A stretch of 34,183 bases of DNA from an uncultured Bacteroidota bacterium (GTDB lineage Bacteria > Bacteroidota > Bacteroidia > 2-12-FULL-35-15). Shown here piece after piece: positions 7,746-26,467 of this stretch (its first letter is position 1; each line of letters begins with the position of its first letter). The position numbers were made by a program, and so were the translations under genes. Location: assembly GCA_903870175.1 (NCBI GenBank), contig CAIQBY010000237.1:1-34183 (forward strand), written 5' to 3'. Under the pieces are notes generated by a model. That model made no database searches and was not told the origin of the DNA. It saw only the letters and a list, made by a program, of their open reading frames with translations.

Positions 7746-7766
7746 ACAGGAAAAAAGCAAGACGAT

Positions 7767-11896: not shown

Positions 11897-13024
11897 ATGA
11901 AGGATATAAGATTAATGAAAGGTAACGAAGCAATTGCCGAAGGCGTTATTCGTGCGGGATGCGATGGGTATTTCGGTTATCCGATTACTCCACAGTCGGA
12001 GGTACTGGAATATCTGATGGCTACCAAAACGAAGGAAAGAACCGGTATGATTACGTTGCAGGCGGAGAGTGAAATTGCTTCCATACACATGGTATATGGT
12101 GGAGCAGCTTGTGGTAAAAGAGTGATGACCTCCTCTTCTAGCCCTGGTATCAGCTTAATGCAGGAAGGGATTTCATTTATGGCAGGCACCGAACTTCCAT
12201 GTTTGCTGCTTAATGTTGTTCGCGGAGGCCCAGGATTAGGCACTATTCAGCCATCGCAGTCGGATTATTTTCAGGCGGTGAAAGGAGGAGGACACGGCGA
12301 CTATAAGATGATTGTGCTTGCTCCTGCTTCCGTTCAGGAGATGTATGATTTCGCGAAGCTTGGCTTTGAACTTGCTTTCAAACATCGTATTCAGGTAATG
12401 GTTTTATCGGATGGCGCAATAGGTCAGATGATGGAGAAGGTAGAATTAGATGAACAGATTCAGAGACTAACTGATGCTGAAATAAAACAAAAATATCCCT
12501 GGGCTACTACTGGCAAAACGCCAGACAGAGAGCGAAACATCATCACTTCCCTTGATTTGAATCCTGTGAAACAGGAAATAATCAATATAAATCTTCAGAA
12601 AAAATTCAAACATATTGAACAAACTGAAGTTCGTTTTGAAAGGATTATGTGTGATGATGCAGAGTATTTATTTGTTGCTTATGGCTCCAGTGCACGTATC
12701 TGCCAGAAGGCTGTATTACTTGGCAGAGAGCGCGGAATTAAAGTTGGGTTGCTTCGACCTATTACCCTTTTCCCTTATCCGTCAAAGGAATTAGCGAAGC
12801 TTGCAAAGCAGGTTAAAGGAATGTTGTCAGTAGAGATGAGCGCAGGACAGATGGTTGAGGATGTCCGTCTTTCTGTTAACGGCGCTGTACCTGTTGAGCA
12901 CTATGGTCGCCTTGGCGGTATCATGCCTGCACCGGATGAAGTATTAAATGTTCTTGAAAATAAATTTATTAGGTTGTCGGTTAATACCCCGAGGCTCTGC
13001 CTCGGAATTAAAAAAATCCTTTAA
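11897..13024 (+). CDS. korA: 2-Oxoacid:ferredoxin oxidoreductase alpha subunit (KorA/VorB type)
   Basis: This is the alpha subunit of the second 2-oxoacid oxidoreductase, which in Bacteroidota uses 2-oxoglutarate or branched-chain 2-oxoacids. FGYPITPQSEVLEYL (about residues 26-40) is the YPITP signature, and QAESEIASIHMVYGGAACG (about 54-72) is characteristic of the KorA/VorB branch. A C-terminal transketolase-like domain ends near residue 360. The last residues (TPRLCLGIKKIL) are encoded by a palindromic repeat (12989-13005) that has replaced the natural end of the gene, so the tail is not native protein sequence. The beta gene follows after 49 bp, which contains a second copy of the repeat. 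Confidence 0.9.
   Translation: MKDIRLMKGNEAIAEGVIRAGCDGYFGYPITPQSEVLEYLMATKTKERTGMITLQAESEIASIHMVYGGAACGKRVMTSSSSPGISLMQEGISFMAGTELPCLLLNVVRGGPGLGTIQPSQSDYFQAVKGGGHGDYKMIVLAPASVQEMYDFAKLGFELAFKHRIQVMVLSDGAIGQMMEKVELDEQIQRLTDAEIKQKYPWATTGKTPDRERNIITSLDLNPVKQEIININLQKKFKHIEQTEVRFERIMCDDAEYLFVAYGSSARICQKAVLLGRERGIKVGLLRPITLFPYPSKELAKLAKQVKGMLSVEMSAGQMVEDVRLSVNGAVPVEHYGRLGGIMPAPDEVLNVLENKFIRLSVNTPRLCLGIKKIL
12989..13005. repeat. Palindromic repeat, copy 1, inside the 3' end of korA
   Basis: CCGAGGC and GCCTCGG form a perfect 7-bp GC-rich stem around TCT. It lies within the coding sequence and supplies the codons for TPRLCLG at the KorA C-terminus. The second copy starts 42 bp downstream. Confidence 0.75.
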
Positions 13025-13030
13025 CTGATA

Positions 13031-13051
13031 CCTCGAGGCTCTGCCTCGGGG
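13031..13051. repeat. Palindromic repeat, copy 2, between korA and korB
   Basis: CCTCGAGGC and GCCTCGGGG pair around TCT (9 bp with one G-T). The core matches copy 1. It sits a few bases after the korA stop and 22 bp before the korB start, so it may form a stem-loop in the polycistronic mRNA. No T-tract follows, so it is not a normal terminator. Confidence 0.75.
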
Positions 13052-13073
13052 TAATTCATTAAAGAAAAAAATT

Positions 13074-13859
13074 ATGAACTACATACCAACTAGAGAAGAA
13101 ATAATAGCAGACCACGATAATGTGGTTTATGAGAGAACGTGTTTGCTGACAGATAACCCGCTTTCGTATTGTCCGGGCTGCGGACATGGAACTGCTCACC
13201 GCTTGATAATGGAAGTGGTGGAAGAAATGAATTTACAGGCAGACACAATAGGAGTGGCTCCTGTAGGCTGTTCGGTACTTGCATATGATTTTATGAATAT
13301 CGATATGCAGCAGGCTGCACACGGTAGAGCACCGGCAGTAGCGACAGGAATTAAAAGACTCATGCCTGATAAATTTGTATTTACTTATCAGGGAGATGGC
13401 GACCTTGCTGCGATTGGAACAGGAGAAACGCTGCACGCTTGTAATCGCGGAGAGAACATTACTATCTTTTTTGTAAATAATGGTATCTATGGAATGACCG
13501 GCGGACAAATGGCTCCCACTACTTTGCCGAATATGAAAACAGCTACATCACCTTATGGACGTGATGTAGAGACTATGGGATATCCTTTAAAGATTACTGA
13601 ATTAATTGCTATGCTCCCAGGTACTTATTTTGTTTCTCGTCAGTCTGTGCATACTCCGGCTAATGTACGCAAGGCAAAAAAGGCAATTGAAAAAGCAATA
13701 CAATATCAAAAATTGAATAAGGGGTTGTGTTTTGTGGAGATTGTTTCAAATTGCAATTCGGGCTGGAAGATGACACCTGAACAATCAAACAAATGGATGG
13801 AAGAGAACATGTTTCCTTATTATCCGTTGGGTGATATTAAAGTTCCGAAGGAAAAATAA
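13074..13859 (+). CDS. korB: 2-Oxoacid:ferredoxin oxidoreductase beta subunit
   Basis: This is the thiamine-diphosphate and [4Fe-4S] beta subunit. CPGCGHG provides Cys33 and Cys36, VAPVGCS Cys66 and IVSNCNSGW Cys227, the four cluster ligands. GDGD at 107-110 and NNGIYGMTGGQ at 135-145 bind ThDP and magnesium. The 261-residue length, with no fused gamma domain, is usual for KorB, unlike the fused beta-gamma at 7767. It is flanked by its alpha and gamma genes. It decarboxylates the 2-oxoacid and passes electrons one at a time through the cluster to the ferredoxin subunit. Confidence 0.93.
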   Translation: MNYIPTREEIIADHDNVVYERTCLLTDNPLSYCPGCGHGTAHRLIMEVVEEMNLQADTIGVAPVGCSVLAYDFMNIDMQQAAHGRAPAVATGIKRLMPDKFVFTYQGDGDLAAIGTGETLHACNRGENITIFFVNNGIYGMTGGQMAPTTLPNMKTATSPYGRDVETMGYPLKITELIAMLPGTYFVSRQSVHTPANVRKAKKAIEKAIQYQKLNKGLCFVEIVSNCNSGWKMTPEQSNKWMEENMFPYYPLGDIKVPKEK

Positions 13860-13909
13860 ATGTCGGATTTGTGAATTTAAAATGGAATTAAAAATAAAAT
13901 TATTTCAAA

Positions 13910-14464
13910 ATGACTGAAGAAATTATTATCGCCGGATTTGGCGGACAAGGCGTTTTATCAATGGGTAAGATACTTGCTTATTCGGGTATGATGCAGAATA
14001 AAGAAGTAAGTTGGTTCCCGTCTTACGGCCCTGAAATGCGCGGTGGCACTGCCAATGTAACTGTTATTATAAGTGATGAACGCATCAGTTCGCCTATTTT
14101 AAATAAGTTTGATACTGCCATCATTCTTAATCAGCAATCAATGGATAAGTTTGAAGACTCAGTGAAACCAGGCGGTGTATTGATTTACGACCCTAATGGA
14201 ATTGTTCGTCATCCGGTAAGAAAAGACATCAACGTATATACAATTGATGCTGCAGATGAAGCGGCACGACTGGGTTTATCTAAAGTATTTAATATGCTTG
14301 TACTTGGTGCTTTCTTAAAATTGAAGCCTTTAATTGAACCTGAATATATGCGTAAAGGACTTGAGAAGTCTTTGCCTATGCGCCATCACAACTTGATTCC
14401 TGAAAACGAAAAGGCTATTGAACGCGGGAAACAATTAGTAAAACTTGAGCATTTAATGAATTGA
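13910..14464 (+). CDS. korC: 2-Oxoacid:ferredoxin oxidoreductase gamma subunit
   Basis: This 184-residue gamma subunit begins with the glycine-rich IIAGFGGQGVLSMG motif (residues 5-18). It carries SYGPEMRGGTANVTV (about 39-53), diagnostic for the KorC/VorC branch. Gamma binds and gates CoA in these enzymes. It completes the ferredoxin-alpha-beta-gamma set. The mutase small subunit starts 13 bp later, so the acyl-CoA made here may be a mutase precursor, or the genes may only share regulation. Confidence 0.93.
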   Translation: MTEEIIIAGFGGQGVLSMGKILAYSGMMQNKEVSWFPSYGPEMRGGTANVTVIISDERISSPILNKFDTAIILNQQSMDKFEDSVKPGGVLIYDPNGIVRHPVRKDINVYTIDAADEAARLGLSKVFNMLVLGAFLKLKPLIEPEYMRKGLEKSLPMRHHNLIPENEKAIERGKQLVKLEHLMN

Positions 14465-14477
14465 AATAGTATCAGAG

Positions 14478-14861
14478 ATGAAAGTATTATTAGCAAAACC
14501 GGGACTTGACGGGCATGATGTAGGAGTAAAAGTACTTGCTCACGGATTAATTGATGCAGGATTCAATGTGGTTTATACGGGTCTTAGAAAATCTATTGAA
14601 GAAATTGTTGATATGGCTGTAGAAAATAAGGTGGACATTATTGGTATGTCAATACTTTCGGGCACTCACCTGGTACTTGCACAAAAAATGAAAGAAGTAA
14701 TGCAGGAAAGAAAGTTGAACATTCCATGGTTTGTAGGAGGTAATATTCCTGCAAAAGATATTGCTAAATTAAGGGAGATTGGCGCATCACAAGCATTTCC
14801 GACAGGCAGTAAAGTATCAGATGTTGTAGCTTATTTTAATACAATTAATGTTTCCGTCTAA
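14478..14861 (+). CDS. Coenzyme B12-binding small subunit of an acyl-CoA mutase
   Basis: This is a 127-residue cobalamin-binding domain. LDGHDVG (10-16) supplies His13, the lower axial ligand of base-off B12; SILSG (about 57-61) and VGGNIP (about 82-87) complete the DxHxxG...SxL...GG signature. Separate small subunits of this size are known from archaeal methylmalonyl-CoA mutase and from isobutyryl-, 2-hydroxyisobutyryl- and aryl-succinyl-type mutases, whereas Bacteroidota usually encode the fused MutA/MutB type. It lies 21 bp upstream of the catalytic large subunit, as expected for a stoichiometric pair. Confidence 0.93.
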   Translation: MKVLLAKPGLDGHDVGVKVLAHGLIDAGFNVVYTGLRKSIEEIVDMAVENKVDIIGMSILSGTHLVLAQKMKEVMQERKLNIPWFVGGNIPAKDIAKLREIGASQAFPTGSKVSDVVAYFNTINVSV

Positions 14862-14882
14862 TTATAGAATAAAACTGAAATA

Positions 14883-16520
14883 ATGAACGCTAGCGAAACA
14901 AAAACAGTAAAGGGCAAGACTGCAAAGGAACTGAATGTGAAACCAGTATTTCTTGAATCAGGGATTGAAGTGAATCCTGTTTATACAGAAGCGGATATTA
15001 ACGAATCGGTTATTAAAAATGAGATGCCTGGTGAATATCCTTTCACGAGAGGGATTCATCCGACCATGTACAGGAATAAACCATTCACGATTCGTCAATA
15101 TGCCGGTTTTGCTTCTCCTGAAGAAACAAATGAACGATTTCAATTTCTTATAAAAAATGGACAATCGGGCTTAAATGTAGCATTTGATTTACCAACTCAA
15201 TGCGGTCTTGATTCTGACGACCCTAGAGCGTTTGGCGAAGTAGGAAGAGTGGGAATGTCAATAGATACTTTAGCTGATTTTGAAATTGCTTTCAAGAATA
15301 TTGATCTGGATAAAATCACGGTATCGCTGACTATCAACGGCACTGCAATTATTCTTATTGCGATGTATGTGGCGATGGCGGAGAAAGCAGGTTATGATAT
15401 TTCAAAACTTAGAGGCACTGCTCAGAATGATATTCTTAAAGAATTTATTGGCAGGGGAACGTGGATTTTTCCTGTTGATAAATCAGTGAAATTAGTTGTT
15501 GATACGATAGAATACTGTGCGAAACATGTTCCTAAGTATAGCCCTGTTAGTGTTTGCGGCTATCATATCCGCGAAAGCGGTGCAAATCCAATACAAGAGA
15601 TGGCGTATGCTTTTTGTATTGCAAAAGCATATACAGATGGTGCTTTGGAAAGAGGAATTACCATTGATGATTTTGCGTCACGGCTTTCTTTCAACTTTGA
15701 TATATATGGAAATTTGTTTGAACAGATAGCTAAGTTCAGAGGCGGAAGAAGACTTTGGGCAAAGATTATACGCGAAGAGTATCATGCACAACAGGACAGT
15801 TCGTGCTGGCTGCGCATGATTGCGGGCGGTGGTGGTGGCGGACTTACTAAGGAACAACCTGAAAACAATATTGTTAGAAGTGCATATTATGCATTGATAA
15901 GCGCCCTTTCGGGTACACAAACAATGGCACTCTGCAGTTATGATGAAGCCTATACAATTCCGACAGAACATTCTGCTGAAATTTCTCTTCGCACGATGCA
16001 GATAATGATTCATGAAATGGGAATTTGTGATACTGTGGATCCGCTGGGAGGCTCGTATTACGTGGAAGCGCTCACAGATAAGTTTGAAGAAGAGATTAAA
16101 AAGGAAATGAAAACCGTGGAAAAATGGGATGGAATTGTGAATGCGGTAGCTTCCGGTAAAATTCAGGAATCAGTCTCAAAACAAGCATACCAGCGCGAAA
16201 TGGGAATGCAGACCGGTAAAGTTCCAAAAGTGGGAGTTAATATCTTTACAAGGGAAGAAGAATCAAAAGATGTTGAGTTTCATCCTTACGACCCTAAAGG
16301 CGCGGATATTCAGATTGCAAAGCTTAATAAGATTAAGGCGGAAAGAAATGGAGATAAGGTAAAAGCGTGTCTCGCTGTAGTTAAGCAGGATGCTATAGAT
16401 AATAAAAATCTGATGCCATCCATAATTGCTGCAGTGAAGGAATACTGCACGGTTGGTGAAATTGTAACTGCAATGAAAGATGTTTATGGTGAATTTAAAG
16501 AACCGATATTTTTTAAATAA
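14883..16520 (+). CDS. B12-dependent acyl-CoA mutase, catalytic large subunit (methylmalonyl-CoA mutase-like)
   Basis: This is a TIM-barrel mutase subunit of 545 residues without its own B12 domain. It rearranges the carbon skeleton of an acyl-CoA by a radical mechanism. Aligned from memory with P. shermanii methylmalonyl-CoA mutase, TIRQYAG gives Tyr73 (Tyr89 there), QNDILKEFIGRG gives Arg191 (Arg207, which grips the substrate carboxylate) and GYHIRESGA gives His228 (His244). Isobutyryl-CoA mutase has Phe/Gln and 2-hydroxyisobutyryl-CoA mutase has Ile/Gln at the first two places. The substrate should therefore carry a carboxylate, such as methylmalonyl/succinyl-CoA or a substituted succinyl-CoA. 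No propionyl-CoA carboxylase or epimerase lies nearby. The neighbours (CoA-transferase, IOR, Mo hydroxylase) would fit an aryl-succinyl-CoA mutase like that of indoleacetate degradation; this is inference. Confidence 0.92.
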   Translation: MNASETKTVKGKTAKELNVKPVFLESGIEVNPVYTEADINESVIKNEMPGEYPFTRGIHPTMYRNKPFTIRQYAGFASPEETNERFQFLIKNGQSGLNVAFDLPTQCGLDSDDPRAFGEVGRVGMSIDTLADFEIAFKNIDLDKITVSLTINGTAIILIAMYVAMAEKAGYDISKLRGTAQNDILKEFIGRGTWIFPVDKSVKLVVDTIEYCAKHVPKYSPVSVCGYHIRESGANPIQEMAYAFCIAKAYTDGALERGITIDDFASRLSFNFDIYGNLFEQIAKFRGGRRLWAKIIREEYHAQQDSSCWLRMIAGGGGGGLTKEQPENNIVRSAYYALISALSGTQTMALCSYDEAYTIPTEHSAEISLRTMQIMIHEMGICDTVDPLGGSYYVEALTDKFEEEIKKEMKTVEKWDGIVNAVASGKIQESVSKQAYQREMGMQTGKVPKVGVNIFTREEESKDVEFHPYDPKGADIQIAKLNKIKAERNGDKVKACLAVVKQDAIDNKNLMPSIIAAVKEYCTVGEIVTAMKDVYGEFKEPIFFK

Positions 16521-17726
16521 ATGACAGGCAGCAAAAAAATAACTGTGTTGTCTCTTGAGCAGGCACTTGCTTTGCCCTTTGCTACGCAACGCATGGTGCA
16601 TCAGGGATGGAGAGTTATTCGTCTGGAAACTCCTGCCGAAGATGGTGGTGGAAATCCCGGCGACCCTAATCGTTATATAGGCGCAGATGTTGGATATAAA
16701 GACTTGCATTCTTATTATATTGCCCCAAACATTGGCAAAGAGGCGATAACAATCAATCTTAAGAAGAAAGAAGGGCAGGAACTTTTATTGAAAATTATAA
16801 AAGAATTGAAGGTAGATGTGTTTATGTGCAACACATTACCGAAAAGATACAAGCAACTTGGAATTGATTTTGAAACGCTGAAACAAGCTAATCCGAAATT
16901 AATCTGGTGCAGCATTTCTGCCATGGGACCTGCATATCCCAATAGTGCAGGCTACGACCCTGCATTACAAGCCTTGATGGGATATACTTATTTAACAGGT
17001 GAACCTGAAGGGAAACCTGTTCCTTGCGGCATTCCTATTATTGATTTAAAAGCAGGAGACGAAGCATTTACACAGGTTCTGCTTGCCATGCTTGAAAATA
17101 ATGCTGGTGGTAAAGAAATTAATATTTCAATGGCTCAATGCGCTGCAAGCTGGTTGATTACTGCATTGCCTCAACATCAATTTGTAAAAGGCGATACTGA
17201 ACTTTTCAAAAGAAGTGGTAATGAACACCGAAGTTTTATTCCCTGCAATGTTTATTCTACACGAGACGGAATGGTATATCTCGCCATTGGCAACGATTCC
17301 CAATGGGCAAAGTTTTGTTCATTAAAAGGTTTTGAAACACTTTTCAAACAAGATAGAATAACAAACCAGGGACGAATGAATGATAAGGAAACGATTTATA
17401 AAGAAATAGGAGAGCTCACCAAACGTTATTCCACTAAGGAGTTTACTGAATTATGTCTTTGTATTAATCTTTCGGTTTCACCGATTAACACAATAAAAGA
17501 AGTTGCTTCGCTTGAATTTATCGCAAGAGAAATGTTGAAGACAAAAATGCCTGATGGCAGAGTTGTTTCATTATTTCCACCTTCTTTTGAAACTGCTTTT
17601 TTGAAAACAAATAACAATACACTTACTTGTGCACCGCGTCTTGGCGAGCAAACCAGGAAAGTTATTGCAGAGGCTGGATATACGATTGACGAACGAACCA
17701 TACTTGAAAAAAATAATGTGATATAG
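16521..17726 (+). CDS. Class III CoA-transferase (CaiB/BaiF family)
   Basis: This 401-residue protein has the family fold signs: an N-terminal Rossmann-like start (ITVLSLEQALALPFATQRM), DPNR/PNIGKEAITINLKKKEG (about residues 48-85), and PIIDLKAG with Asp175, the position of the catalytic aspartate that forms the mixed anhydride. Family members move CoA between carboxylic acids, for example carnitine, formate or benzylsuccinate. The gene abuts the mutase (TAA then ATG) and the iorA gene (TAG then ATG), with no spacer on either side, so it is translated with them. It probably activates the free acid that feeds the mutase, using succinyl-CoA or another pathway thioester as donor; donor and acceptor are not visible in sequence. 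Confidence 0.9.
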   Translation: MTGSKKITVLSLEQALALPFATQRMVHQGWRVIRLETPAEDGGGNPGDPNRYIGADVGYKDLHSYYIAPNIGKEAITINLKKKEGQELLLKIIKELKVDVFMCNTLPKRYKQLGIDFETLKQANPKLIWCSISAMGPAYPNSAGYDPALQALMGYTYLTGEPEGKPVPCGIPIIDLKAGDEAFTQVLLAMLENNAGGKEINISMAQCAASWLITALPQHQFVKGDTELFKRSGNEHRSFIPCNVYSTRDGMVYLAIGNDSQWAKFCSLKGFETLFKQDRITNQGRMNDKETIYKEIGELTKRYSTKEFTELCLCINLSVSPINTIKEVASLEFIAREMLKTKMPDGRVVSLFPPSFETAFLKTNNNTLTCAPRLGEQTRKVIAEAGYTIDERTILEKNNVI

Positions 17727-19919
17727 ATGATAGAACGCACTATTAAAATATTAACGCCTCATACTTCCCCTCATAAAACATGTGTTATGGGCAATGAAGG
17801 AATAGCGCGCGCTGCTCTGGAAGCAGGTGTTAATGGTGTGTTTGCTTATCCCGGAACTCCTTCAACGGAGATTTCAGAAATATTCAGTCATGTTAATACC
17901 TTTCAAAGTAATCCAATAAATCAAGAGAAGTATCCAGAGATAACTAAAGACCCAGTGTATTTTGAATACAGCATCAATGAGAAAATAGCCTTGGAGAAAG
18001 CAATTGCTTATTCTATTGGCAATCGCAGCGCCATGTGTGTAATGAAAAATGTAGGGATGAATGTGGCGAGCGATGCACTTATGTCAGTTACATATCAGAC
18101 AATTGGTGCGCCTTTAGTTATAGTTGTTTGTGACGACCCCGGTTGTCATTCCAGTTCAAATGAGCAGGATTCACGCTATTGGGGACAAATGGCTTCGGTT
18201 CCAATGCTTAATCCTGCTACTCCTGCCGATGCTTTTGAAATGATTAAACAGGCATTTGAACTTTCAGGAAAAATCAAGTTGCCTGTTATAGTACGCACTA
18301 CCACTCGTGTTTCTCATACCAAAGGAATTGTAACATATGGAAATATTAATCATGAATTCGGCATTCCTAAATTTGAACGTTTACCCGAGCATATAAACAT
18401 TCCTGCCCGCACAGCGGCAGCACACGCCCGATTACTTGATAAATTGAAGAATGAAAATGTGCTTGAGTTACTTGCTGTGAACAGCAAATATATATTTAAT
18501 GAACACAAAGCTAAGCATGGAATAATAAGCACCGGAGTAGCTACTACTTATATAACAGAAATACTTTCTCAAAATAATGTTACCGAAAAAGTTAATGTTC
18601 TTGACTTGGGAATGATTCATCCTTTTCCTGAAAAAGAAGTAGTCTCATTTTTAAAAAGAGATTATGAGAAAATATTAATCCTTGAAGAACTGGATGCTAT
18701 ACTTGAGAATTCAGTGCGAACGATTGCTCAAAAAAATAAAATAAATACAACTATTCTTGGAAAAGGTTTTGCAGGATTAGTTACAACAGGGGAGTTTTCA
18801 ATTGACTTGATTACAAATGTTCTTCAGGATTTTTTGGAAACAGATTTCAGCAGTACTGAAAATATTACACTTGCAGATACCGAAAAGTATTTGAATAATC
18901 TTCCTCCTCGTCCTCCTGCATTATGCGCTGGATGCCCGCATCGCGCCACCTTTTATTTATTGAAACTTGCGATTTCGCGCGAACAAAGCGAACTTATTTT
19001 ATGCGGAGATATTGGATGTTTCGGTCTTGGTGCATTGCCGCCATTGAAAATGCTTGATACAATCAATCATATGGGAATGAGTATAAGTATGGCTCAGGGA
19101 CTATTTGAATCGGCTCATAATTCAGAAAAAAAGCAGAAGGTGGTGGCATTAGTTGGCGATGGAACATTCTTTCATTCCGGGCTTGCATCCCTTGTAAATG
19201 CAGTATATACAAGAGCAAACATACTTGTTGTTATTTTTGATAACAGAACTACTGGGATGACCGGACATCAGGCCCATCCTGGGGCTTCACGACTTCCTAA
19301 ATATCATGAGATTGATATTCCGCCTTTGTTGAAAGGGCTTGGAGTGGAAATGGTTAAAACTATTAATCCATTTAATATTCGTGATAGCTTCAAACAATTG
19401 AATAAAGCAATGGAGTTTGAAGGCGTTTCTGTAGTGATAGCAAAAGCCTCGTGCATCTTCCTGCCTGATTTCAAAGATAAAATTGATAAGAAATTAAAAA
19501 TCGCTGTTGATCATAATCGTTGTAATTCCTGCGCCAACCATGAAGATGCTTTGATTTCCTGTTCAAGATGCTATGCGCCCAAAAATAATTTATCAAGAGC
19601 GAAAGCAAAATTAATTTCTGAAATTTCTATTTCTGGAGACGAACAACTTTGCCCTGCAAACATCTGCAATCATGGGTTTTTCAACTCTATAATTGAAGGC
19701 GATTATAAATCGGCAGTGGAAATTGTTCGTGATAAAATGTTGTTTGCAAGAACCTGTAGTGCTATATGTCATCGCCCTTGCGAACTTTTTTCAACACAAA
19801 ACAATGTAGTGCCGATTAAGAAATTAAAACACCTGGTTTCTGCAATTGATGAAAACTTCCGTGACTTTTCTCATCCAAAGAAAAGAACAAAGAATGCAAT
19901 AAAAAAAATAAGTCTGTAG
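17727..19919 (+). CDS. iorA: Indolepyruvate oxidoreductase alpha subunit, N-terminal part of an IorA-GltD-ferredoxin fusion
   Basis: IorA oxidatively decarboxylates aryl pyruvates (indolepyruvate, phenylpyruvate, 4-hydroxyphenylpyruvate) to arylacetyl-CoA. Visible parts are YPGTPSTEIS (41-50, pyrimidine domain), CAGCPHR (Cys400, Cys403) with CGDIGCFGLG, and GDG at 477-479 followed by DNRTTGMTGHQ (ThDP site). Where IorA normally ends in a 2[4Fe-4S] ferredoxin domain, this protein continues from about residue 599 with CNSC...SCSRC, then CPANIC (from Cys642) and CSAICHRPCE, the iron-sulfur N-terminal domain of GltD-type NAD(P)H oxidoreductases. The frame stops at a TAG just after an A8 tract. 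The next frame holds the rest of the GltD domain and the missing ferredoxin domain. Joined, the product would be about 1,131 residues. Its start abuts the CoA-transferase stop. Confidence 0.9.
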   Translation: MIERTIKILTPHTSPHKTCVMGNEGIARAALEAGVNGVFAYPGTPSTEISEIFSHVNTFQSNPINQEKYPEITKDPVYFEYSINEKIALEKAIAYSIGNRSAMCVMKNVGMNVASDALMSVTYQTIGAPLVIVVCDDPGCHSSSNEQDSRYWGQMASVPMLNPATPADAFEMIKQAFELSGKIKLPVIVRTTTRVSHTKGIVTYGNINHEFGIPKFERLPEHINIPARTAAAHARLLDKLKNENVLELLAVNSKYIFNEHKAKHGIISTGVATTYITEILSQNNVTEKVNVLDLGMIHPFPEKEVVSFLKRDYEKILILEELDAILENSVRTIAQKNKINTTILGKGFAGLVTTGEFSIDLITNVLQDFLETDFSSTENITLADTEKYLNNLPPRPPALCAGCPHRATFYLLKLAISREQSELILCGDIGCFGLGALPPLKMLDTINHMGMSISMAQGLFESAHNSEKKQKVVALVGDGTFFHSGLASLVNAVYTRANILVVIFDNRTTGMTGHQAHPGASRLPKYHEIDIPPLLKGLGVEMVKTINPFNIRDSFKQLNKAMEFEGVSVVIAKASCIFLPDFKDKIDKKLKIAVDHNRCNSCANHEDALISCSRCYAPKNNLSRAKAKLISEISISGDEQLCPANICNHGFFNSIIEGDYKSAVEIVRDKMLFARTCSAICHRPCELFSTQNNVVPIKKLKHLVSAIDENFRDFSHPKKRTKNAIKKISL
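19901..19908 (+). other. A8 tract: candidate -1 frameshift or transcriptional slippage site joining IorA to GltD
   Basis: Eight As lie in the iorA frame as A-AAA-AAA-ATA, the heptamer form that allows -1 slippage of two lysine tRNAs and also RNA-polymerase slippage. One extra A, or a -1 shift, turns KKISL-stop into KKNKSVAIIGAGPAGLSAAYDL, running directly into the nucleotide-binding motif. The -1 frame is open from 19865 to 21121 and offers no ATG before that motif. Whether the shift is programmed, a mutation or a base-call error cannot be settled from this sequence. Confidence 0.6.
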
Positions 19920-19945
19920 CAATAATAGGAGCTGGACCGGCTGGA

Positions 19946-21121
19946 TTGAGTGCTGCTTACGACTTGATACAAACAGGATACGATATTACTATTTTTGAAA
20001 AAGAAACAAAGGCAGGTGGCATGATAACCTATGCTATTCCTGACTTCAGAATGGATAAAACAGGCTTTGATTATGAAGCAATGCAGCTTGAAGAAATGGG
20101 TGTTACTTTCAAATTTAATACCGCTTTAGCTAAAGAAATTTCATTGGAAAAATTAAATAAAGAATACGATTCTATAATTCTTGCCATTGGAATGAATAAA
20201 TCAAAAACGCTTGAATTGATTGATTCTACAGTACCTTCTGATAAAAGAATAGATGCTCTTTCTTTTCTTAAATCATTTAATGCGAGAGAAAATAATATAA
20301 AACACGGAGCAACAGTATTGGTTATTGGTGGCGGAAACAGTGCCATTGATGTAGCACGTGCAGCAAAAAAATTAAACTCATTGAACAAAGTAGTTGTAAC
20401 TTGTATTGAAACAGAAGCTGCAATGCCAGCATTTGCTGAGGAAGTAAAACATGCTGTGGATGAAGGAATAGAATTTATTCATGATAGTTTTGTAGAAACT
20501 TGTTCCATAAATAAAACAGGAGAAATAAATATTTCGCTGCATTATTTCAACAATAAAAAACATTTGGAGGACTTGAAATGCGATTATATCATCACTGCTA
20601 TTGGACAAACTACCGAATCATCGGTGATTGAGAAGTTGAATAAAGATGAAAACATGCGAGTGAAAAACGAGGATAGTTTCACAGGTTATAATAATGTATT
20701 CGTTGCAGGAGATATAAGTTCCGGTAATAATATAAGTGTCATTGGCGCTATTGCATCTGGGAAGAAAGTCGCAATTGGGGTGCGTAAATTATTGGGGAAA
20801 TATGAATTTGAGTACGAAGGAAATTATTCTTTAAACAGATTAAATACCGTTCCTACTCCGACTCATAAACAGGAGAAAGAAGTGGCGGACGAGGATTTAT
20901 TAACGGAGGCAGAACGCTATAATCTTTTTCAGGCTTGCAAAAAATGCAATCATTGCATTGACAACTTCGGCTGTCCCGCAATGGTGAAGGTGCATGGCAA
21001 GGTGGAGATCGATATAAGCCGTTGTAATTTATGTGGCTTGTGTATTGATGTTTGCCCGAATAACGCGATTAGCTGGGTTAATGAAGAAGAAATGGAACTT
21101 GAACCGGAAGAAACTTTTTGA
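19946..21121 (+). CDS. GltD-like FAD/NAD(P) oxidoreductase module plus IorA-type ferredoxin domain (second part of the fusion)
   Basis: This frame carries the flavin and pyridine-nucleotide domains of a glutamate-synthase-small-subunit-like oxidoreductase. The first dinucleotide motif, VAIIGAGPAGLSAAYDL, is encoded from 19916, but the first possible start, TTG at 19946, falls inside it. An independent start would thus destroy the FAD site, so I read it as the continuation of iorA. A second motif, VLVIGGGNSAIDVARAAK, lies near 20320, and NVFVAGDISSG near 20700 closes the FAD site. The C-terminus, with CKKCNHCIDNFGCPA and CNLCGLCIDVCP, is the 2[4Fe-4S] domain that normally ends IorA. The NAD(P)H module is therefore inserted between IorA's ThDP and ferredoxin domains. 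Likely role: passing electrons from aryl-pyruvate oxidation to NAD(P)+. Only four bases separate it from iorB. Confidence 0.85.
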   Translation: MSAAYDLIQTGYDITIFEKETKAGGMITYAIPDFRMDKTGFDYEAMQLEEMGVTFKFNTALAKEISLEKLNKEYDSIILAIGMNKSKTLELIDSTVPSDKRIDALSFLKSFNARENNIKHGATVLVIGGGNSAIDVARAAKKLNSLNKVVVTCIETEAAMPAFAEEVKHAVDEGIEFIHDSFVETCSINKTGEINISLHYFNNKKHLEDLKCDYIITAIGQTTESSVIEKLNKDENMRVKNEDSFTGYNNVFVAGDISSGNNISVIGAIASGKKVAIGVRKLLGKYEFEYEGNYSLNRLNTVPTPTHKQEKEVADEDLLTEAERYNLFQACKKCNHCIDNFGCPAMVKVHGKVEIDISRCNLCGLCIDVCPNNAISWVNEEEMELEPEETF

Positions 21122-21124
21122 TAA

Positions 21125-21721
21125 ATGATTAAGAATTATAAGATTTTAATTGCTGGAGTTGGTGGTCAAGGTATTGTTTACTTGAGTAATATTATTGTGG
21201 AAGCGGCAATGTTATCAGGCATTCCGGTGAGTGTAAGTGAGATTCATGGGCTGTCGCAACGTGGCGGTGTGGTTACTTCCGGCATTGGGCTCGGTGAGTA
21301 TTGTACAGGATTTTATGGCAAAGCAGGTGTTGATTTTCTGATTGGCTTGGAGCCGCTGGAAACGCAGCGTTGCATAAGTTATCTTCATACCAGAAGCAGT
21401 GTTGTGTTTGGTAATTACAGAATTCAACCCTATTCTGTGAATGCGCAGATGGCTGAATATCCCGATGTGGTGGAGTTTGCGTATTATTTGGGTAAACAAT
21501 GCACGGAGGTAGCTTTTATTGAACATTTTCCGGAGGAGATTGATTCGGTTTTGTATAATGTCTTTTTGTTGGGGAGAGCTACGAGGATGAAAGACTTTCC
21601 TTTTAAAAAAGAAATTACGGAGCGGGCGATTGATTCGGTCGTGACGGGATATTATAAAGAGAAGACTTTAAGAGCTTTTAAATTAGGCTTGGATTATGAA
21701 TTGAATAAACAAATGGTTTAG
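21125..21721 (+). CDS. iorB: Indolepyruvate oxidoreductase beta subunit
   Basis: IorB is the gamma-type subunit (homologous to KorC) that completes indolepyruvate oxidoreductase. It begins with ILIAGVGGQGIVYLSN (8-23) and contains SEIHGLSQRGGVVTS (about 38-52), the IorB version of the KorC signature. At 198 residues it has the usual single-domain length. The start ATG follows the iorA-GltD frame stop by three bases (TGATAAATG), so translation is probably coupled. With the fused alpha chain it should give an enzyme that converts an aryl pyruvate to an aryl-acetyl-CoA. Confidence 0.93.
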   Translation: MIKNYKILIAGVGGQGIVYLSNIIVEAAMLSGIPVSVSEIHGLSQRGGVVTSGIGLGEYCTGFYGKAGVDFLIGLEPLETQRCISYLHTRSSVVFGNYRIQPYSVNAQMAEYPDVVEFAYYLGKQCTEVAFIEHFPEEIDSVLYNVFLLGRATRMKDFPFKKEITERAIDSVVTGYYKEKTLRAFKLGLDYELNKQMV

Positions 21722-21741: not shown

Positions 21742-22269
21742 TTGAAAAAGGAGAAAATAAATAAAGTTATAAAACATGATATTTCATTTAAACTGAATGG
21801 AAAAAAAGTTGATTGCTCTATAAAAGGATCGACTGTTTTGCTGGATTTGTTGCGTGATGATTTGGAATTGAAAGGGACGAAAGCGGGATGCAATGAGGGT
21901 GAATGTGGTGCTTGCACTGTACTTGTGGATGATGCGCCGGTGAATTCGTGTTTGTATCTGGCAGTGAATGTGAATGGAAAAAGTGTTACAACTATTGAAG
22001 GGCTCGCAAATGGTGATGGCGAATTGCATCCGGTCCAGGAATCGCTGGTGAAAAGTGGTGCGGTACAATGTGGATTTTGTACTTCGGGGATGGCAATGGC
22101 AATAAAGGCAATGGTTTCGCAATATGAAAGCGGACAGCATGTGCCTGGTGAAAGTGGAAATAATTTTCCGAGCAGAGAGGAAATAAAAAAGTATTTGGAA
22201 GGGAATTTGTGCCGGTGTACAGGTTATGTGAAGATAGTGGATTCGGCTGAAAAATTATTTAGTAATTAG
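21742..22269 (+). CDS. Molybdenum hydroxylase, 2x[2Fe-2S] small subunit (xanthine dehydrogenase family)
   Basis: This is a 175-residue electron-transfer subunit with both clusters intact: Cys50, 55, 58 and 70 (plant-type: CNEGECGAC then SC) and Cys110, 113, 157 and 159 (QCGFC and LCRC). A roughly 20-residue insertion before the last motif is mild. It starts at a TTG at 21742; no ATG lies upstream of the conserved FKLNGKKV start. Its order, small-large-medium, with the next two genes is typical of CoxS/L/M-type or 4-hydroxybenzoyl-CoA-reductase-type clusters. Electrons flow from Mo through these clusters to FAD in the medium subunit. Confidence 0.93.
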   Translation: MKKEKINKVIKHDISFKLNGKKVDCSIKGSTVLLDLLRDDLELKGTKAGCNEGECGACTVLVDDAPVNSCLYLAVNVNGKSVTTIEGLANGDGELHPVQESLVKSGAVQCGFCTSGMAMAIKAMVSQYESGQHVPGESGNNFPSREEIKKYLEGNLCRCTGYVKIVDSAEKLFSN

Positions 22270-22281
22270 GGATAATCAGGA

Positions 22282-23574
22282 ATGAAAAGGGCATTAAAAG
22301 TCATAGGAACGGGCGTTCCGAAACAGGATGCAAAAATTCGGGTAACTGGAAAAGCGGTGTATGGGCATGACATTGTGTTGCCTGATATGTTGTATGGGGC
22401 GATATTGAGAACTGAACATCCTTCTGCAATTATTGAATCTATTGATGTTTTGGAAGCAATGAAGCTGGAAGGTGTGGTGTGTGTGATAACGGCAGACGAT
22501 GTAGATACTAATAACATTGGGTATAAGCGGGATCATCCTATTTTGAAGAAAGGTGAGGCAAATTGTACTCGTGATGAAATAGCTGCTGTGGCTGCAGAAA
22601 CGAAGGAAATTGCTAAGAAAGCGCTGAAGTTAATAAAGGTAAAATATAGAGTAAGGAGAGGTGTTTATGATATGCATGAGGCACTGAAAGAGGCTTCTCC
22701 GCAAATTAATAAATTTATAAGTGGTAAATTTTCCAACAAAAATATTGCTGAAACATTTCATTATGAGCATGGGAATTTGGAGGAAGAAAGGAAGAAGAGT
22801 GCACATATTGTTACGCGTAAATTTACGCTGCCACGCATGACGCATGCATGTATGGCGACAAGTAACGTGACGGCATCGTATAATAAAGTGGATAAAAAGT
22901 TGCTTATGTATAGTTCTACACAAGTTCCATTTTTATTTCAACGGGATTTGGCACATGCACTGAAAATGAATCCTTCGGATATACGAGTGATTCAACCTGT
23001 TATTGGTGGCGGGTTTGGAAGCAAACTGGATATTCATCCTTTTGAACCTATATGTGCTTTGCTCTCAATAAAAACTGGCAGACCGATGCAAATTCTTTAT
23101 ACGAGAGAAGAGGAATTTATAGCGTCACCTATACGACAGCCAATGGAGATAGAGCTTACAGCGGGTGTGGATAAGGAAGGCAATTTTACTTTCAGGGAAA
23201 TAAATATTGTGAAAGATAATGGTGCTTATACTTCGTGGGGCGCAACTACTCCGTTTGTTATTATGCAGTCGTTTTCTTCGCTTTATAAATTAAGGGCATG
23301 TAAATTTAATGCAACGGCAGTATATACAAACAATGTGTTTGCAGGTTCATTCAGAGGATATGGGAATCCGCAGGCGACTTTTGCTTTGGAGCGAGTGATT
23401 GATTTGCTTGCTGAAAAATTGGGGATGGATAAAGCTGCGATTCGCCTGCAGAATGCGAATGAAAAGGGTGAAGTAACAGGACAAGGTTTGCATTATGATA
23501 CTTGCGGACATAAGGATTGTTTGGAAGCAGTGATTACCAAGAGTAATTACGAATTACGAATTACGAATCTATAA
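22282..23574 (+). CDS. Molybdenum hydroxylase large (Mo-cofactor) subunit, N-terminal part
   Basis: These are the first 430 residues of the molybdopterin-binding catalytic subunit. RVTGKAVYGHDI (20-31) is the usual start of the domain, GGGFGSK (242-248) contacts the cofactor, and GSFRGYGNPQ carries Arg358 of the Mo site. The frame ends at a TAA directly after three copies of a 7-bp repeat (23545-23565), in the middle of the protein. Deleting two copies, or adding one, restores a continuous frame into the next feature, giving about 765 residues, a normal length for this subunit. As it stands the split would be inactive unless the two halves reassemble or slippage occurs. Confidence 0.85.
   Translation: MKRALKVIGTGVPKQDAKIRVTGKAVYGHDIVLPDMLYGAILRTEHPSAIIESIDVLEAMKLEGVVCVITADDVDTNNIGYKRDHPILKKGEANCTRDEIAAVAAETKEIAKKALKLIKVKYRVRRGVYDMHEALKEASPQINKFISGKFSNKNIAETFHYEHGNLEEERKKSAHIVTRKFTLPRMTHACMATSNVTASYNKVDKKLLMYSSTQVPFLFQRDLAHALKMNPSDIRVIQPVIGGGFGSKLDIHPFEPICALLSIKTGRPMQILYTREEEFIASPIRQPMEIELTAGVDKEGNFTFREINIVKDNGAYTSWGATTPFVIMQSFSSLYKLRACKFNATAVYTNNVFAGSFRGYGNPQATFALERVIDLLAEKLGMDKAAIRLQNANEKGEVTGQGLHYDTCGHKDCLEAVITKSNYELRITNL
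23545..23565 (+). repeat. Three tandem copies of AATTACG causing a frameshift in the Mo-hydroxylase gene
   Basis: The 7-bp unit AATTACG is repeated three times and followed by AAT. With one copy (or four) the flanking codons join in frame as ITKSNYESIKDGRYKKGIGLA. With the three present the frame ends at CTA TAA. The unit resembles the TTACGAAT motif of the 39-bp repeats at 32752-32945. Heptamer repeats in coding DNA are typical substrates for slipped-strand mutation. Confidence 0.8.
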
Positions 23575-23612
23575 AGGATGGAAGATATAAAAAAGGAATT
23601 GGACTTGCATCC

Positions 23613-24593
23613 ATGTTACATGTTGGAGGAGGTGCAAAAATATACCGTTCGGATGGCTGTGGAACGACTTTGAAAATTGATCCTTATGGATATTGTACAA
23701 TAATAACGGGTTCAAATGAAATAGGACAAGGTTCGGAAACTGTATTAGCCATGATGGCTTCAGAAGAATTGGGTATTGATTTAAAACGAATAAAAGTTAT
23801 TAATACAGATACAGATATAAAACCTTGGGATGTTGGAGTGCATGCATCGCGAACGAGTTTTGTAGCCGGCAATTCGTTGCTGGGAGCAATAAAAATATTA
23901 AAGGAAAAACTGAATAAGAAGGCCGGAGAGTTATTAAAAACAGCACATTCAGAGTTTGAATATGATGGTGGTGAAATAATTTCTAATAAAACAAAGGAGC
24001 ATATTGCATTAGATAAAGTAGTGAGAGAAATGCACTTTAGCGAACCGAATGAATTGGCAATTGCATCCTTCTTTTATGAACCTACCAGTAAGTTTCAGGA
24101 TAAAGAATTTAAAGGAAATGTTTCGGGTTCATATGCTTTCGCAGCACAGGCAATAGAAGTGGAAGTGGATACTTATACCGGAAATGTTCGAGTGCTTGAT
24201 ATATATGTGGCGCAGGATGTAGGAAAAGTTTTGAATCCGCTTTTGTTGGGCGGACAAATAGAAGGGGGAATTTTACAAGGTGTTGGATATGCTTTGACTG
24301 AAGAATTATTGATGCATGAAGGGAAAATATTGAATTCAAATTTTCATAATTATAAAATGCTTACTGCTGCAGATATTCCGAATATTCATTTCTTCCCGAT
24401 TGAAACAAATGATAAAGAAGGCCCTTATGGAGCAAAGGGTGTGGGCGAAGCACCATTAATACCAACTGCAGCTGCCATTGCAAATGCGGTATGCAACGCT
24501 CTTGACATTGAAGTTATTGATTTGCCGATAACACCAGAAAAAGTTTTGAGAGCGATAGCAGAAAAAAAGAAATTGAAAAAAGAAATTGTGTAG
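23613..24593 (+). CDS. Molybdenum hydroxylase large subunit, C-terminal part
   Basis: This is the second half of the Mo-cofactor subunit, in a different frame from the first. The frame is open from 23547; the ATG at 23613 is internal to the conserved GIGLASMLH segment and unlikely to be a true start. SNEIGQGSETVLAMMASEELGI (from residue 34) binds the pterin, and GVGEAPL provides Glu279, the catalytic base of the family. All key residues of the Mo site are thus intact on both sides of the break, which implies a recent or reversible event rather than long decay. Three bases separate its stop from the FAD subunit start. Confidence 0.82.
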   Translation: MLHVGGGAKIYRSDGCGTTLKIDPYGYCTIITGSNEIGQGSETVLAMMASEELGIDLKRIKVINTDTDIKPWDVGVHASRTSFVAGNSLLGAIKILKEKLNKKAGELLKTAHSEFEYDGGEIISNKTKEHIALDKVVREMHFSEPNELAIASFFYEPTSKFQDKEFKGNVSGSYAFAAQAIEVEVDTYTGNVRVLDIYVAQDVGKVLNPLLLGGQIEGGILQGVGYALTEELLMHEGKILNSNFHNYKMLTAADIPNIHFFPIETNDKEGPYGAKGVGEAPLIPTAAAIANAVCNALDIEVIDLPITPEKVLRAIAEKKKLKKEIV

Positions 24594-24596
24594 GTC

Positions 24597-25466
24597 ATGA
24601 ATTTTGAAATAATAAATCCGGGTACGACAAAAGAACTTCTTGGAGCAGTTAATAAATTGCAAAAGGAGAAATTTCGTTTTGGGGCAGGATGCACTGATTT
24701 GCTTATGGAACTGAAGAAAAAACCTGAGGATGGATTAACAATAATAAATCTTTCACAGGTGAAAGATTCATCGTTTTCCGGAATAAAAAAGTCTGCAAAA
24801 GGAATGCGATTGGGAGCAATGTTTACAGCACATAAAATTGTAGTAAATGAAGAAATAAAGAACGCTTTTAATGTTCTTCATGAATCAGCGCATAATTTAG
24901 CATCAACACAAATAAGACAAGTGGCAACTGTTGGGGGAAACTTATGTACTGCATCACCTTCAGGAGATATTGCATGTGCTTTGGTTGCTTTGGACGCTAC
25001 ATGTGAAATGCTTTCAACAACAGGAAAAAGAAGGGAAATAAATATAAAGGAGTTTTTTATTGGAGTGAGAACTACTGCCATAGGTAAGAATGAAGTGCTC
25101 TATGGCATTGCAGTTCCTGCGAATGAAAAGAAAACAAAAACTATTCATTCTAACTTTATAAAGATTGGAACAAGGCGTTCCATGGAATGTTCGGTGGTTT
25201 CATTGGCGTATCATATTCAGGTGAATGAGGAAGGGGTGATAATTAAAGCAGGAGTTTCAATTGGTGCTTCTGCGCCAACTGTTCGCTTTGCTGAGGAAGC
25301 TTGTGATTTTTTAATTGGGAAGAAATTCAAAGCCATTTCTCAAAAGGAAAAAGAAGAATTTGCAGAAAAGGTTTTGTCTTATGCTTCGCCAATTACAGAT
25401 ATACGAGCGACTTCATGGTACAGAAAAGAAGTATTGTTTAATATCAGTAAAAGTATTTTTGAATGA
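24597..25466 (+). CDS. Molybdenum hydroxylase FAD-binding medium subunit
   Basis: This 289-residue FAD subunit belongs to the CoxM/xanthine dehydrogenase family. RFGAGCTDLL (27-36) and ATVGGNLCTASPSGD (110-124) are the two flavin-binding loops; AGC replaces the common AGG. The protein has the standard length and lacks the roughly 40-residue cysteine-bearing insertion that holds the extra [4Fe-4S] cluster in 4-hydroxybenzoyl-CoA reductase. That cluster serves low-potential reductive dehydroxylation, so its absence points to a hydroxylase or dehydrogenase working in the oxidative direction. The stop overlaps the start of the aminotransferase (ATGA). Confidence 0.92.
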   Translation: MNFEIINPGTTKELLGAVNKLQKEKFRFGAGCTDLLMELKKKPEDGLTIINLSQVKDSSFSGIKKSAKGMRLGAMFTAHKIVVNEEIKNAFNVLHESAHNLASTQIRQVATVGGNLCTASPSGDIACALVALDATCEMLSTTGKRREINIKEFFIGVRTTAIGKNEVLYGIAVPANEKKTKTIHSNFIKIGTRRSMECSVVSLAYHIQVNEEGVIIKAGVSIGASAPTVRFAEEACDFLIGKKFKAISQKEKEEFAEKVLSYASPITDIRATSWYRKEVLFNISKSIFE

Positions 25467-26467
25467 CTGACACCAAACCAATCAGACTATCGGCAAATGA
25501 AAACTGCTATGGTTGCTCGCCTTTAGCGCTGGACGCTATTCAGAAAAAATATAAGGATGTTCATTTATATCCTGATGTATTTCCTAATTCTTTGAAAGGG
25601 AAGCTGGCGGAAAAGTTTGGTGTGTCTGCTGATAATATAGTTGTTGGTGCAGGGTCGGTAAAGATTATTGATGAACTTATTCGAACATATGTAGGGTTGG
25701 AGGATGAGATTCTAACATTTGAAAAAAGTTTTATTGCTTATAGTCAGCTAGCGGGATTTTATAAACTCAAATGTATTTTGGCTCCGCTAAACGATTATAG
25801 ATGTTTGCCAGGAAACCTTTTGCCATTGATAACTGATAAAACGAAATTGATTTTTATTGCCAATCCTAATAACCCTACGGGAACTATTATTAATCATGCT
25901 GAACTGGAAGCTTTTTTAAAATCAATATCAAATAAAATAATTGTTGTTATTGATGAAGCGTATGGAGAATATATTACTGATTTTAGTTTCCCTAAATCAT
26001 TAGAACTTCAAAAACAATATCCGAATCTAGTGGTACTTCGTTCCTTTTCCAAAATTTACGGTTTGGCTGGATTACGTATTGGATATGGTATTATGGAAGA
26101 GAAAATTGCTTCCGTACTTAATGCAAATCAGGTTCCATATTCATTAAGTTATCTTTCGTCGGATGCAGCTATTGCAGCTTTGATCGATAAATTATTTGTC
26201 TGTAATTCGGCGAGAGCCAATGCCGAACAGCGGGATTATTTATATTCTGAATTAACGAACTTAGGCTTTAAAACTATTCCTACACAGGCTAATTTTATTT
26301 ATGTCTGGTTTGACAATGATGTAGAAAAGCAACGTATTTATGATTTGTTGCTGAAAAATGGAATTGTGATTTGTGATTTGAAAGTTTTCGGACAGGAAAA
26401 ATCAGTGAGAATTACTATTGGAGATAAAGAAACAAATCAGCGGATTGTTTCCACTTTATCAAAGTAA
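25463..26467 (+). CDS. hisC: HisC-family PLP aminotransferase, probably an aromatic amino-acid aminotransferase
   Basis: This is a fold-type I aminotransferase of the histidinol-phosphate group. It shows NPNNPTG (134-140), VVIDEAYGEY with Asp164, and SFSKIYGLAGLRIGYG with the PLP lysine Lys197; the substrate carboxylate arginine is in SVRITIG near residue 319. At 334 residues it is slightly shorter than typical HisC. No histidine gene is nearby. The start overlaps the stop of the Mo-hydroxylase FAD gene in an ATGA arrangement, so it is translationally coupled to the catabolic operon. HisC paralogues often act on aromatic amino acids, and here that would supply the aryl pyruvate used by IorA/IorB. 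The family is certain; the substrate is inferred from context. Confidence 0.88.
   Translation: MTDTKPIRLSANENCYGCSPLALDAIQKKYKDVHLYPDVFPNSLKGKLAEKFGVSADNIVVGAGSVKIIDELIRTYVGLEDEILTFEKSFIAYSQLAGFYKLKCILAPLNDYRCLPGNLLPLITDKTKLIFIANPNNPTGTIINHAELEAFLKSISNKIIVVIDEAYGEYITDFSFPKSLELQKQYPNLVVLRSFSKIYGLAGLRIGYGIMEEKIASVLNANQVPYSLSYLSSDAAIAALIDKLFVCNSARANAEQRDYLYSELTNLGFKTIPTQANFIYVWFDNDVEKQRIYDLLLKNGIVICDLKVFGQEKSVRITIGDKETNQRIVSTLSK

Follow-up and report, generated by a model that had tools for sequence, protein, structure and literature searches.

A putative NAD+-linked indolepyruvate oxidoreductase alpha subunit with an internal GltD-type module in uncultured Bacteroidota

Within a 34,183-nucleotide stretch of DNA from an uncultured Bacteroidota bacterium (the window), we found a gene in which a GltD-type oxidoreductase lies between the ThDP core of an IorA-type protein and the terminal ferredoxin domain. 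Its motifs and neighbours led us to propose that the product of this fused gene is probably the alpha subunit of a CoA-acylating indolepyruvate:NAD+ oxidoreductase, which would supply an indoleacetate pathway of the iaa type. With less assurance, we lean towards the view that the fused proteins are a distinct clade with an internal NAD+ reductase, serving largely uncultured Bacteroidota, and a small number of other phyla, as a ferredoxin-free gateway from tryptophan to auxin-type (iaa) degradation. 2-Oxoacid oxidoreductases normally pass low-potential electrons to ferredoxin; a flavoprotein wired into the alpha subunit would commit such an enzyme to NAD+. Its reaction would thereby become effectively irreversible, and organisms lacking a dedicated ferredoxin:NAD+ system could use it.

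Results and Discussion

Domain organization of the split gene

The gene is broken into two frames which, once joined (17727-21121), encode 1,131 residues with zero internal stops. Its features are the following.

17727..19919, + strand: frame 1, an open reading frame of 730 aa with the IorA ThDP core (residues ~17-590) and the GltD-type Fe-S N-terminal domain (~597-720); TIGR03336, PF02775
19155..19244, + strand: ThDP-binding motif GDGTFFHSG...NAVYT...DN, residues 477-506; seen in the sequence and conserved in the family
19521..19781, + strand: GltD-type two-cluster domain with eight Cys (599, 602, 612, 642, 647, 677, 681, 685), invariant in 49/49 proteins
19901..19908, + strand: A8 run at which the frame is lost by one base, with A_AAA_AAA in the phase of frame 1; seen in the sequence
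19907..21121, + strand: frame 2 (-1), GltD FAD and NAD domains followed by a two-cluster ferredoxin domain; listed as an open reading frame at 19946-21121
19928..19945, + strand: FAD-binding GAGPAG motif; sequence conservation
20327..20410, + strand: NAD-binding GGGNSA motif, and TCIE at the place of the NADPH-type YRR; sequence conservation
20930..21079, + strand: IorA-type 2[4Fe-4S] ferredoxin domain with 8 invariant Cys; HMM tests and conservation

The NCBIfam profile IOR_alpha (TIGR03336) matched residues 17-606 of frame 1 (profile 2-559, 6.7e-171) and, through profile positions 550-595, frame 2 (3.5e-10); GltD/PRK12771-type matches fell between these two segments, and the FAD/NAD(P) domains matched PF07992. 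The insert ahead of the ferredoxin domain comprises about 470 residues. The matches in the two frames gave the order ThDP core, GltD Fe-S, FAD/NAD(P) and ferredoxin, bearing out the initial annotation, which had placed the GltD Fe-S domain at the end of frame 1 and the FAD and NAD(P) domains, then a two-cluster ferredoxin, in frame 2. The predicted structure (pTM 0.63) also recovered both parts: residues 15-372 matched 2-oxoacid oxidoreductases (Z about 33) and residues 597-1075 matched Nfn/Stn/GltD proteins (Z about 31), the best being Nfn-ABC, Stn and NfnL, with the ferredoxin domain hardly covered by the structure comparison. By sequence, the PDB gave no more than weak matches for the IorA half.

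The frame break

The frame is broken because the poly-A run is one base short. At the junction the window reads ATA AAA AAA ATA AGT CTG TAG, and continuing in -1 gives NAIKK-NKSVAIIGAG, which matches the relatives (the counterpart in relative L018 is NAVKKNKSVAVIGAG). No ATG, GTG or TTG precedes GAGPAG in frame 2, whose first start, the TTG at 19946, lies just past the motif; frame 2 therefore cannot be a gene of its own whose flavin domain is complete. This observation, together with the occurrence of the relatives as single open reading frames, led us to reject the existence of separate IorA and GltD genes.

Most likely, the break arose either during assembly, as an error, or through the recent deletion of one base. 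A biological origin, either as a pseudogene in this lineage or with the full protein produced by slippage at A_AAA_AAA, seems possible but doubtful: the A8 run is, in its phase, a classic -1 slippery heptamer at which a shift yields exactly the full-length protein, and the same operon contains a second split gene, that of the Mo subunit, broken at a 7-bp repeat; however, the relatives are in frame without any shift and many of them lack the long A run, the constraint on both halves of the split gene is the same as in the intact relatives, and the metagenome-assembled genome (MAG) of the window is fragmented into 423 contigs. As the RNA fold downstream of the A8 run was also unremarkable (z -1.38), programmed frameshifting as the normal mode of expression was ruled out.

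Intact relatives and distribution

We identified 48 distinct homologues of 1093-1202 aa, mostly from Bacteroidota MAGs, with the same domain order in one uninterrupted open reading frame, to which frame 1 is up to 85% identical. They substantiate the reading of the two frames as a single protein. The annotation had named two observations that would speak against it, IorA and GltD consistently encoded apart, each gene having its own start, and relatives without the C-terminal ferredoxin motif; the former was found in no relative of the clade, and all 8 Cys of the ferredoxin domain were kept in 49/49 proteins. IorB adjoins the fused gene in every relative locus whose contig extends that far.

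Four intact relatives scored 602.8, 575.9, 599.2 and 582.4 bits against TIGR03336, all below the NCBI curated cut-off of 650.9, so that the protein is a relative of IorA and not the NCBI equivalog. In relative L019, residues 17-616 covered profile positions 2-568 (6e-181), and the match to PRK12771 reached 267.6 bits, below the curated cut-off of 516.

In the ThDP-core tree the fusion proteins formed a monophyletic clade with support 0.944; the GltD tree also grouped them together, but weakly (support 0.364). Desulfobacterota carry other IorA-GltD fusions, which fell outside this clade in both trees; these are apparently independent of the Bacteroidota type, and a single origin of all IorA-GltD fusions was not supported. 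An internal insertion had been regarded as unusual: it is indeed uncommon, but the separate Desulfobacterota fusions mean that it is not unique. Among 249 genomes from the phylum of the gammaproteobacterial example, the fused type was found in one, the example itself. In plasmid records no region reached 80% coverage of the fused protein, and the open-licence literature yielded nothing on IorA with GltD and, judged by title, nothing on topic for a fused indolepyruvate oxidoreductase.

The GltD module probably lies inside IorA

The terminal ferredoxin domain distinguishes an internal insertion from an end-to-end fusion. When all 49 terminal domains were scored, the median was 50.2 bits with the IorA-type HMM vs 35.1 with the GltD-type; with the first training set the values were 43.7 for the IorA-type vs 19.5 and 14.2. 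The terminal ferredoxin thus scores as IorA-type and not as GltD-type, and therefore GltD sits inside IorA, which, together with the domain order of the 48 relatives, supports the earlier proposal of a whole oxidoreductase within IorA. The NADH-forming module would have entered IorA immediately ahead of its C-terminal ferredoxin domain.

An end-to-end joining of an IorA devoid of ferredoxin to a PRK12771-type GltD bringing its own C-terminal ferredoxin is improbable. It would agree with the absence of this domain from standalone Bacteroidota IorA proteins and with the alignment of the PRK12771 profile (566 positions) across GltD and the terminal ferredoxin, but it is disfavoured by the HMM medians of both training sets and by the spacing C-x2-C-x2-C-x5-CPA, which is the IorA pattern, unlike EA-x-RCxxCG; moreover, three Desulfobacterota fusions have two ferredoxins in succession, the first GltD-type and the second IorA-type.

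The internally fused protein shares with IorAB (TIGR03336/TIGR03334) the ThDP core, the terminal 2[4Fe-4S] ferredoxin domain and a separate IorB, and differs from it in the flavoprotein placed before the ferredoxin and in the predicted acceptor, NAD+ instead of ferredoxin. Phenylglyoxylate:NAD+ oxidoreductase, PadEFGHI of Azoarcus evansii, has its GltD-like part on a subunit of its own. According to the title of a study cited in PMC5109826, it is a 2-oxoacid oxidoreductase linked to NAD+, a property also predicted for the fusion, in which GltD is instead built into an alpha subunit with an IorA-type core. The GltD/NfnB/Stn family (PRK12771-like) has the same Fe-S N-terminal, FAD and NAD(P) domains, with Rossmann motifs that read GAGPAG and GGGNSA in the fusion; the fusion differs in being embedded in IorA and in having C-x-E in place of YRR. 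A GltD module is also joined to a 2-oxoacid oxidoreductase subunit in a POR-gamma+GltD+ferredoxin fusion (752 aa, L020:320-2575; also in L132), although on the gamma subunit and with YRR and its own GltD-type ferredoxin kept. In L020 this second fusion shares the locus with an IorA-GltD gene.

Electron acceptor

The YRR motif, which recognizes the 2'-phosphate of NADPH, is replaced by C-x-E, with C893 in 48/49 proteins and E895 nearly invariant; only L052 among the fusion members keeps YRR. This replacement in nearly all members points to NAD+, and the sequences thus indicate NAD+ rather than NADP+ as the acceptor. Transfer to NADP+, or to both nucleotides, is unlikely: GltD relatives are mostly NADPH-linked, as is known for the family, and L052 retains the motif, but in nearly all members C-x-E is found and an acidic residue ends the second strand. 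The electrons would travel through both sets of clusters, IorA-type and GltD, reach FAD and from there NAD+, with no free ferredoxin; in the genome of the window no RnfC was found above the cut-off. The fusion still needs IorB, encoded separately in the adjacent gene, so the original description as a self-contained aryl-pyruvate:NAD(P)+ oxidoreductase was too strong in its first term and can be narrowed to NAD+ in its last.

Pathway context and substrate

The neighbourhood of the fused gene in the window contains the following genes.

6618..9083, + strand: 2-oxoacid oxidoreductase alpha and beta/gamma-type genes
9086..11627, + strand: HMG-CoA-synthase-like/OB-fold protein and thiolase (BbsAB-like)
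11897..14464, + strand: VorBAC-like 2-oxoacid oxidoreductase
14478..16520, + strand: B12-dependent acyl-CoA mutase, small and large subunits, IaaGH-like candidate (PF02310, PF01642)
16521..17726, + strand: class III CoA transferase, IaaL-like candidate (PF02515 1.9e-62)
21125..21721, + strand: IorB, gamma-type POR domain, partner subunit (PF01558 2.1e-18, IOR_beta-type matches; adjacent in relatives)
21742..25466, + strand: molybdenum hydroxylase with Fe-S, Mo (two frames) and FAD subunits
25463..26467, + strand: HisC-like aminotransferase, candidate aromatic aminotransferase

The mutase and the CoA transferase are family-level matches to the candidate IaaGH and IaaL functions. Anaerobic indoleacetate degradation (iaa) includes a hydantoinase step, and a hydantoinase A/B pair is present in the context of the fusion, in an operon that encodes HyuA, HyuB and an acyl-CoA dehydrogenase with the motif IGGGTSEI. 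Hydantoinase_A proteins of 707-744 aa occurred in 15/15 genomes with the fusion vs 0/74 without it (89 related genomes, whose counts are not phylogenetically independent). In the surroundings of fused genes, 24 loci had the IGGGTSEI motif, among them contig C403 of the window genome; GGG in place of YEG has been reported for all IaaF acyl-CoA dehydrogenases (PMC8360864), and the dehydrogenases near the fused genes carry this GGG. TrpB2 is encoded near the fused gene in L056, L058 and L066, the last of which holds a hydantoinase and a phenylacetate-CoA ligase as well.

Together with IorB, the fusion would carry out the oxidative decarboxylation of indolepyruvate on ThDP, with CoA, to indoleacetyl-CoA and CO2, as the entry step to iaa-type degradation following a transaminase acting on tryptophan. 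OFORs that convert indolepyruvate to indoleacetyl-CoA are known (PMC13290082); the same paper gives no motif from which use of this substrate could be predicted. Phenylpyruvate or hydroxyphenylpyruvate may serve as substrates; that either phenylpyruvate or 4-hydroxyphenylpyruvate is the main one, with phenylacetyl-CoA entering a benzoyl-CoA-type pathway, merits little weight: IOR-type enzymes are promiscuous for arylpyruvates (as known for the family; PMC5109826), the locus of the fused gene in L044 contains a 6-hydroxycyclohex-1-ene-1-carbonyl-CoA dehydrogenase and the Mo-hydroxylase of the window resembles 4-hydroxybenzoyl-CoA reductase, but the strict co-occurrence with hydantoinase, the GGG acyl-CoA dehydrogenase and the TrpB2 neighbours fit the opening of an indole-derived ring, a step that phenylacetyl-CoA would not require.

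With indolepyruvate as the probable substrate, the context leads us to predict that uncultured Bacteroidota have an indoleacetate pathway of the iaa type that would start from tryptophan rather than from free auxin. The iaa operon of Aromatoleum aromaticum likewise combines a CoA transferase, a B12 mutase and a GGG acyl-CoA dehydrogenase and proceeds via indoleacetyl-CoA (PMC8360864); there, however, the ligase IaaB activates indoleacetate, whereas here indoleacetyl-CoA would come from indolepyruvate.

Conservation of the fused gene

The initial annotation proposed that a GltD-type module is embedded in IorA and named a search for uninterrupted homologues with the same domain order as a check. 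Two homologue searches recovered 48 distinct relatives in which the protein is encoded by a single ORF of 1093-1202 aa, and IorB follows the fused gene in every relative locus of sufficient length. The 16 iron-sulphur cysteines, 8 in the GltD-type domain and 8 in the ferredoxin domain, are invariant (49/49 sequences). The IorA-GltD fusion is genuine and conserved. Its carriers are mostly Bacteroidota MAGs; others are titled Ignavibacteriales, KSB1, Desulfobacterales, Gammaproteobacteria, Arenicellales and Armatimonadetes, although the assignment of single contigs to bins calls for caution. Ten genomes that are non-Bacteroidota or outlying were examined, and 6 of them also encode an ordinary full-length IorA above the family cut-off, so that in those six the fusion is a separate paralogue.

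In an AlphaFold2 model of an intact relative, L019 (mean pLDDT 81.7, pTM 0.63), residues 15-372 match pyruvate and 2-oxoglutarate ferredoxin oxidoreductases (Z ~32-34, rmsd 2.6-4.2), and residues ~597-1075 match Nfn-ABC, Stn and NfnL (Z 29-31, rmsd 2.4-3.1), the ferredoxin domain being barely covered.

The frame break

In the window the gene is split as follows:

17727-19919, + strand: frame 1, aligning with the core of the IorA alpha subunit model
-1 frame, ending at 21121, + strand: frame 2, with matches first to flavoproteins of the GltD/PRK12771 type and, after these, to the final 45 positions of the IorA model
19901-19908, + strand: A8 run, the site of the break, with one base missing

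Joined across the A8 run, the frames yield 1,131 residues with zero stops, and in relatives this stretch is in frame (e.g. AAT GCT GTG AAG AAA AAT AAA TCG GTG GCT, NAVKKNKSVA). Purifying selection on both halves is about the same as in intact relatives. A deletion that happened recently, or an error in the assembly, most likely accounts for the break. Some rescue by slippage is possible, because the run reads as the slippery heptamer A_AAA_AAA in the phase that a -1 shift requires; however, relatives need no shift and the RNA fold downstream is ordinary. Frame 2 was rejected as a separate functional gene, since no start codon precedes its FAD-binding motif. In the only other broken copy found among the relatives (L043:10060-10200), the damage lies at another place: a short duplication close to the cysteine motif of GltD, which may be an assembly glitch.

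Probable insertion of GltD into IorA

In Bacteroidota, IorA proteins that stand alone have no ferredoxin domain, so the terminal ferredoxin of the fusion could have arrived together with GltD as a tail fusion. The scores of the 49 ferredoxin domains argue against this: medians were 43.7 for the IorA-type versus 19.5 and 14.2 for the GltD-type with a first training set, and 50.2 versus 35.1 with a second. These values favour an insertion of GltD into IorA, as originally proposed. The window clade is monophyletic in the core tree (strong support, 0.944) and in the GltD tree (weak, 0.364).

Further, divergent IorA-GltD proteins were found in Desulfobacterota (L165, L166, L176 and L177); in three of them a ferredoxin of GltD type precedes one of IorA type. 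The Desulfobacterota fusions do not group as sisters with the window clade in either tree, suggesting more than one entry of GltD into IorA near the same point.

Electron acceptor

GltD relatives have a YRR motif where the second strand of the NAD(P) domain ends, and this motif presumably binds the 2'-phosphate of NADPH. The fusion has C-x-E instead (Cys893 in 48/49, Glu895 nearly invariant), which makes NAD+ the likely acceptor; YRR is kept in L052 alone. No RnfC above the family cut-off was found in the window genome, which would benefit from passing electrons directly to NAD+.

Every single module of the fusion is already known, and oxidoreductases producing indoleacetyl-CoA have been assayed (PMC13290082). 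In known NAD+-linked 2-oxoacid oxidoreductases the flavoprotein is a separate subunit, whereas here it lies inside IorA, an arrangement for which no published description was found among open-licence papers.

Probable indoleacetate pathway context

Of 89 genomes, the 15 that have the fusion, and no others, encode a Hydantoinase_A protein of 707-744 aa (Fisher p 2.6e-17, which ignores kinship); one further genome has a match of 1336 aa. In relatives the hydantoinase genes belong to an operon directly upstream, contiguous with the fusion cluster in L161 and L163 and on a separate contig (C403) in the window genome:

L162:3396-10760: 3-hydroxyacyl-CoA dehydrogenase/enoyl-CoA hydratase, HyuA, HyuB, RidA and IaaF-like acyl-CoA dehydrogenase

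This acyl-CoA dehydrogenase has IGGGTSEI at its end, and all motifs of this kind that a scan detected beside the fusion were GGG. PMC8360864 reports that GGG replaces YEG in every IaaF enzyme of indoleacetate catabolism, and that the pathway starts with indoleacetyl-CoA. TrpB2-like genes near the fused IorA in three proteobacterial loci (L056:959-2332, L058:5492-6883 and L066:5823-7082), together with a hydantoinase and a phenylacetate-CoA ligase in L066, point likewise to an indoleacetate-type pathway. Given the hydantoinase co-occurrence, the GGG motif, TrpB2 and the other neighbours, the fused enzyme would most likely convert indolepyruvate to indoleacetyl-CoA, and is expected to be promiscuous for arylpyruvates.

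The fused gene also neighbours, in an order largely kept in relatives, a CoA transferase, a B12 mutase, a thiolase, an HMGS-like protein, two more 2-oxoacid oxidoreductases, a Mo-hydroxylase and a HisC-like aminotransferase. A break splits the hydroxylase's Mo-binding subunit at 23545-23613, where the 7-bp unit AATTACG occurs three times; the corresponding loop in L062 holds a repeat-like insert of another kind. A second design of NAD(P)-wired 2-oxoacid oxidoreductase is a 752-aa protein in which a POR gamma domain is fused to GltD and ferredoxin (L020:320-2575, within the fused-gene locus, and also L132). In one relative the fused gene directly adjoins a gene for a 1465-aa activase of the BcrAD/BadFG type that includes DUF2229 (L023:3481-7875, L163:14565-18959).
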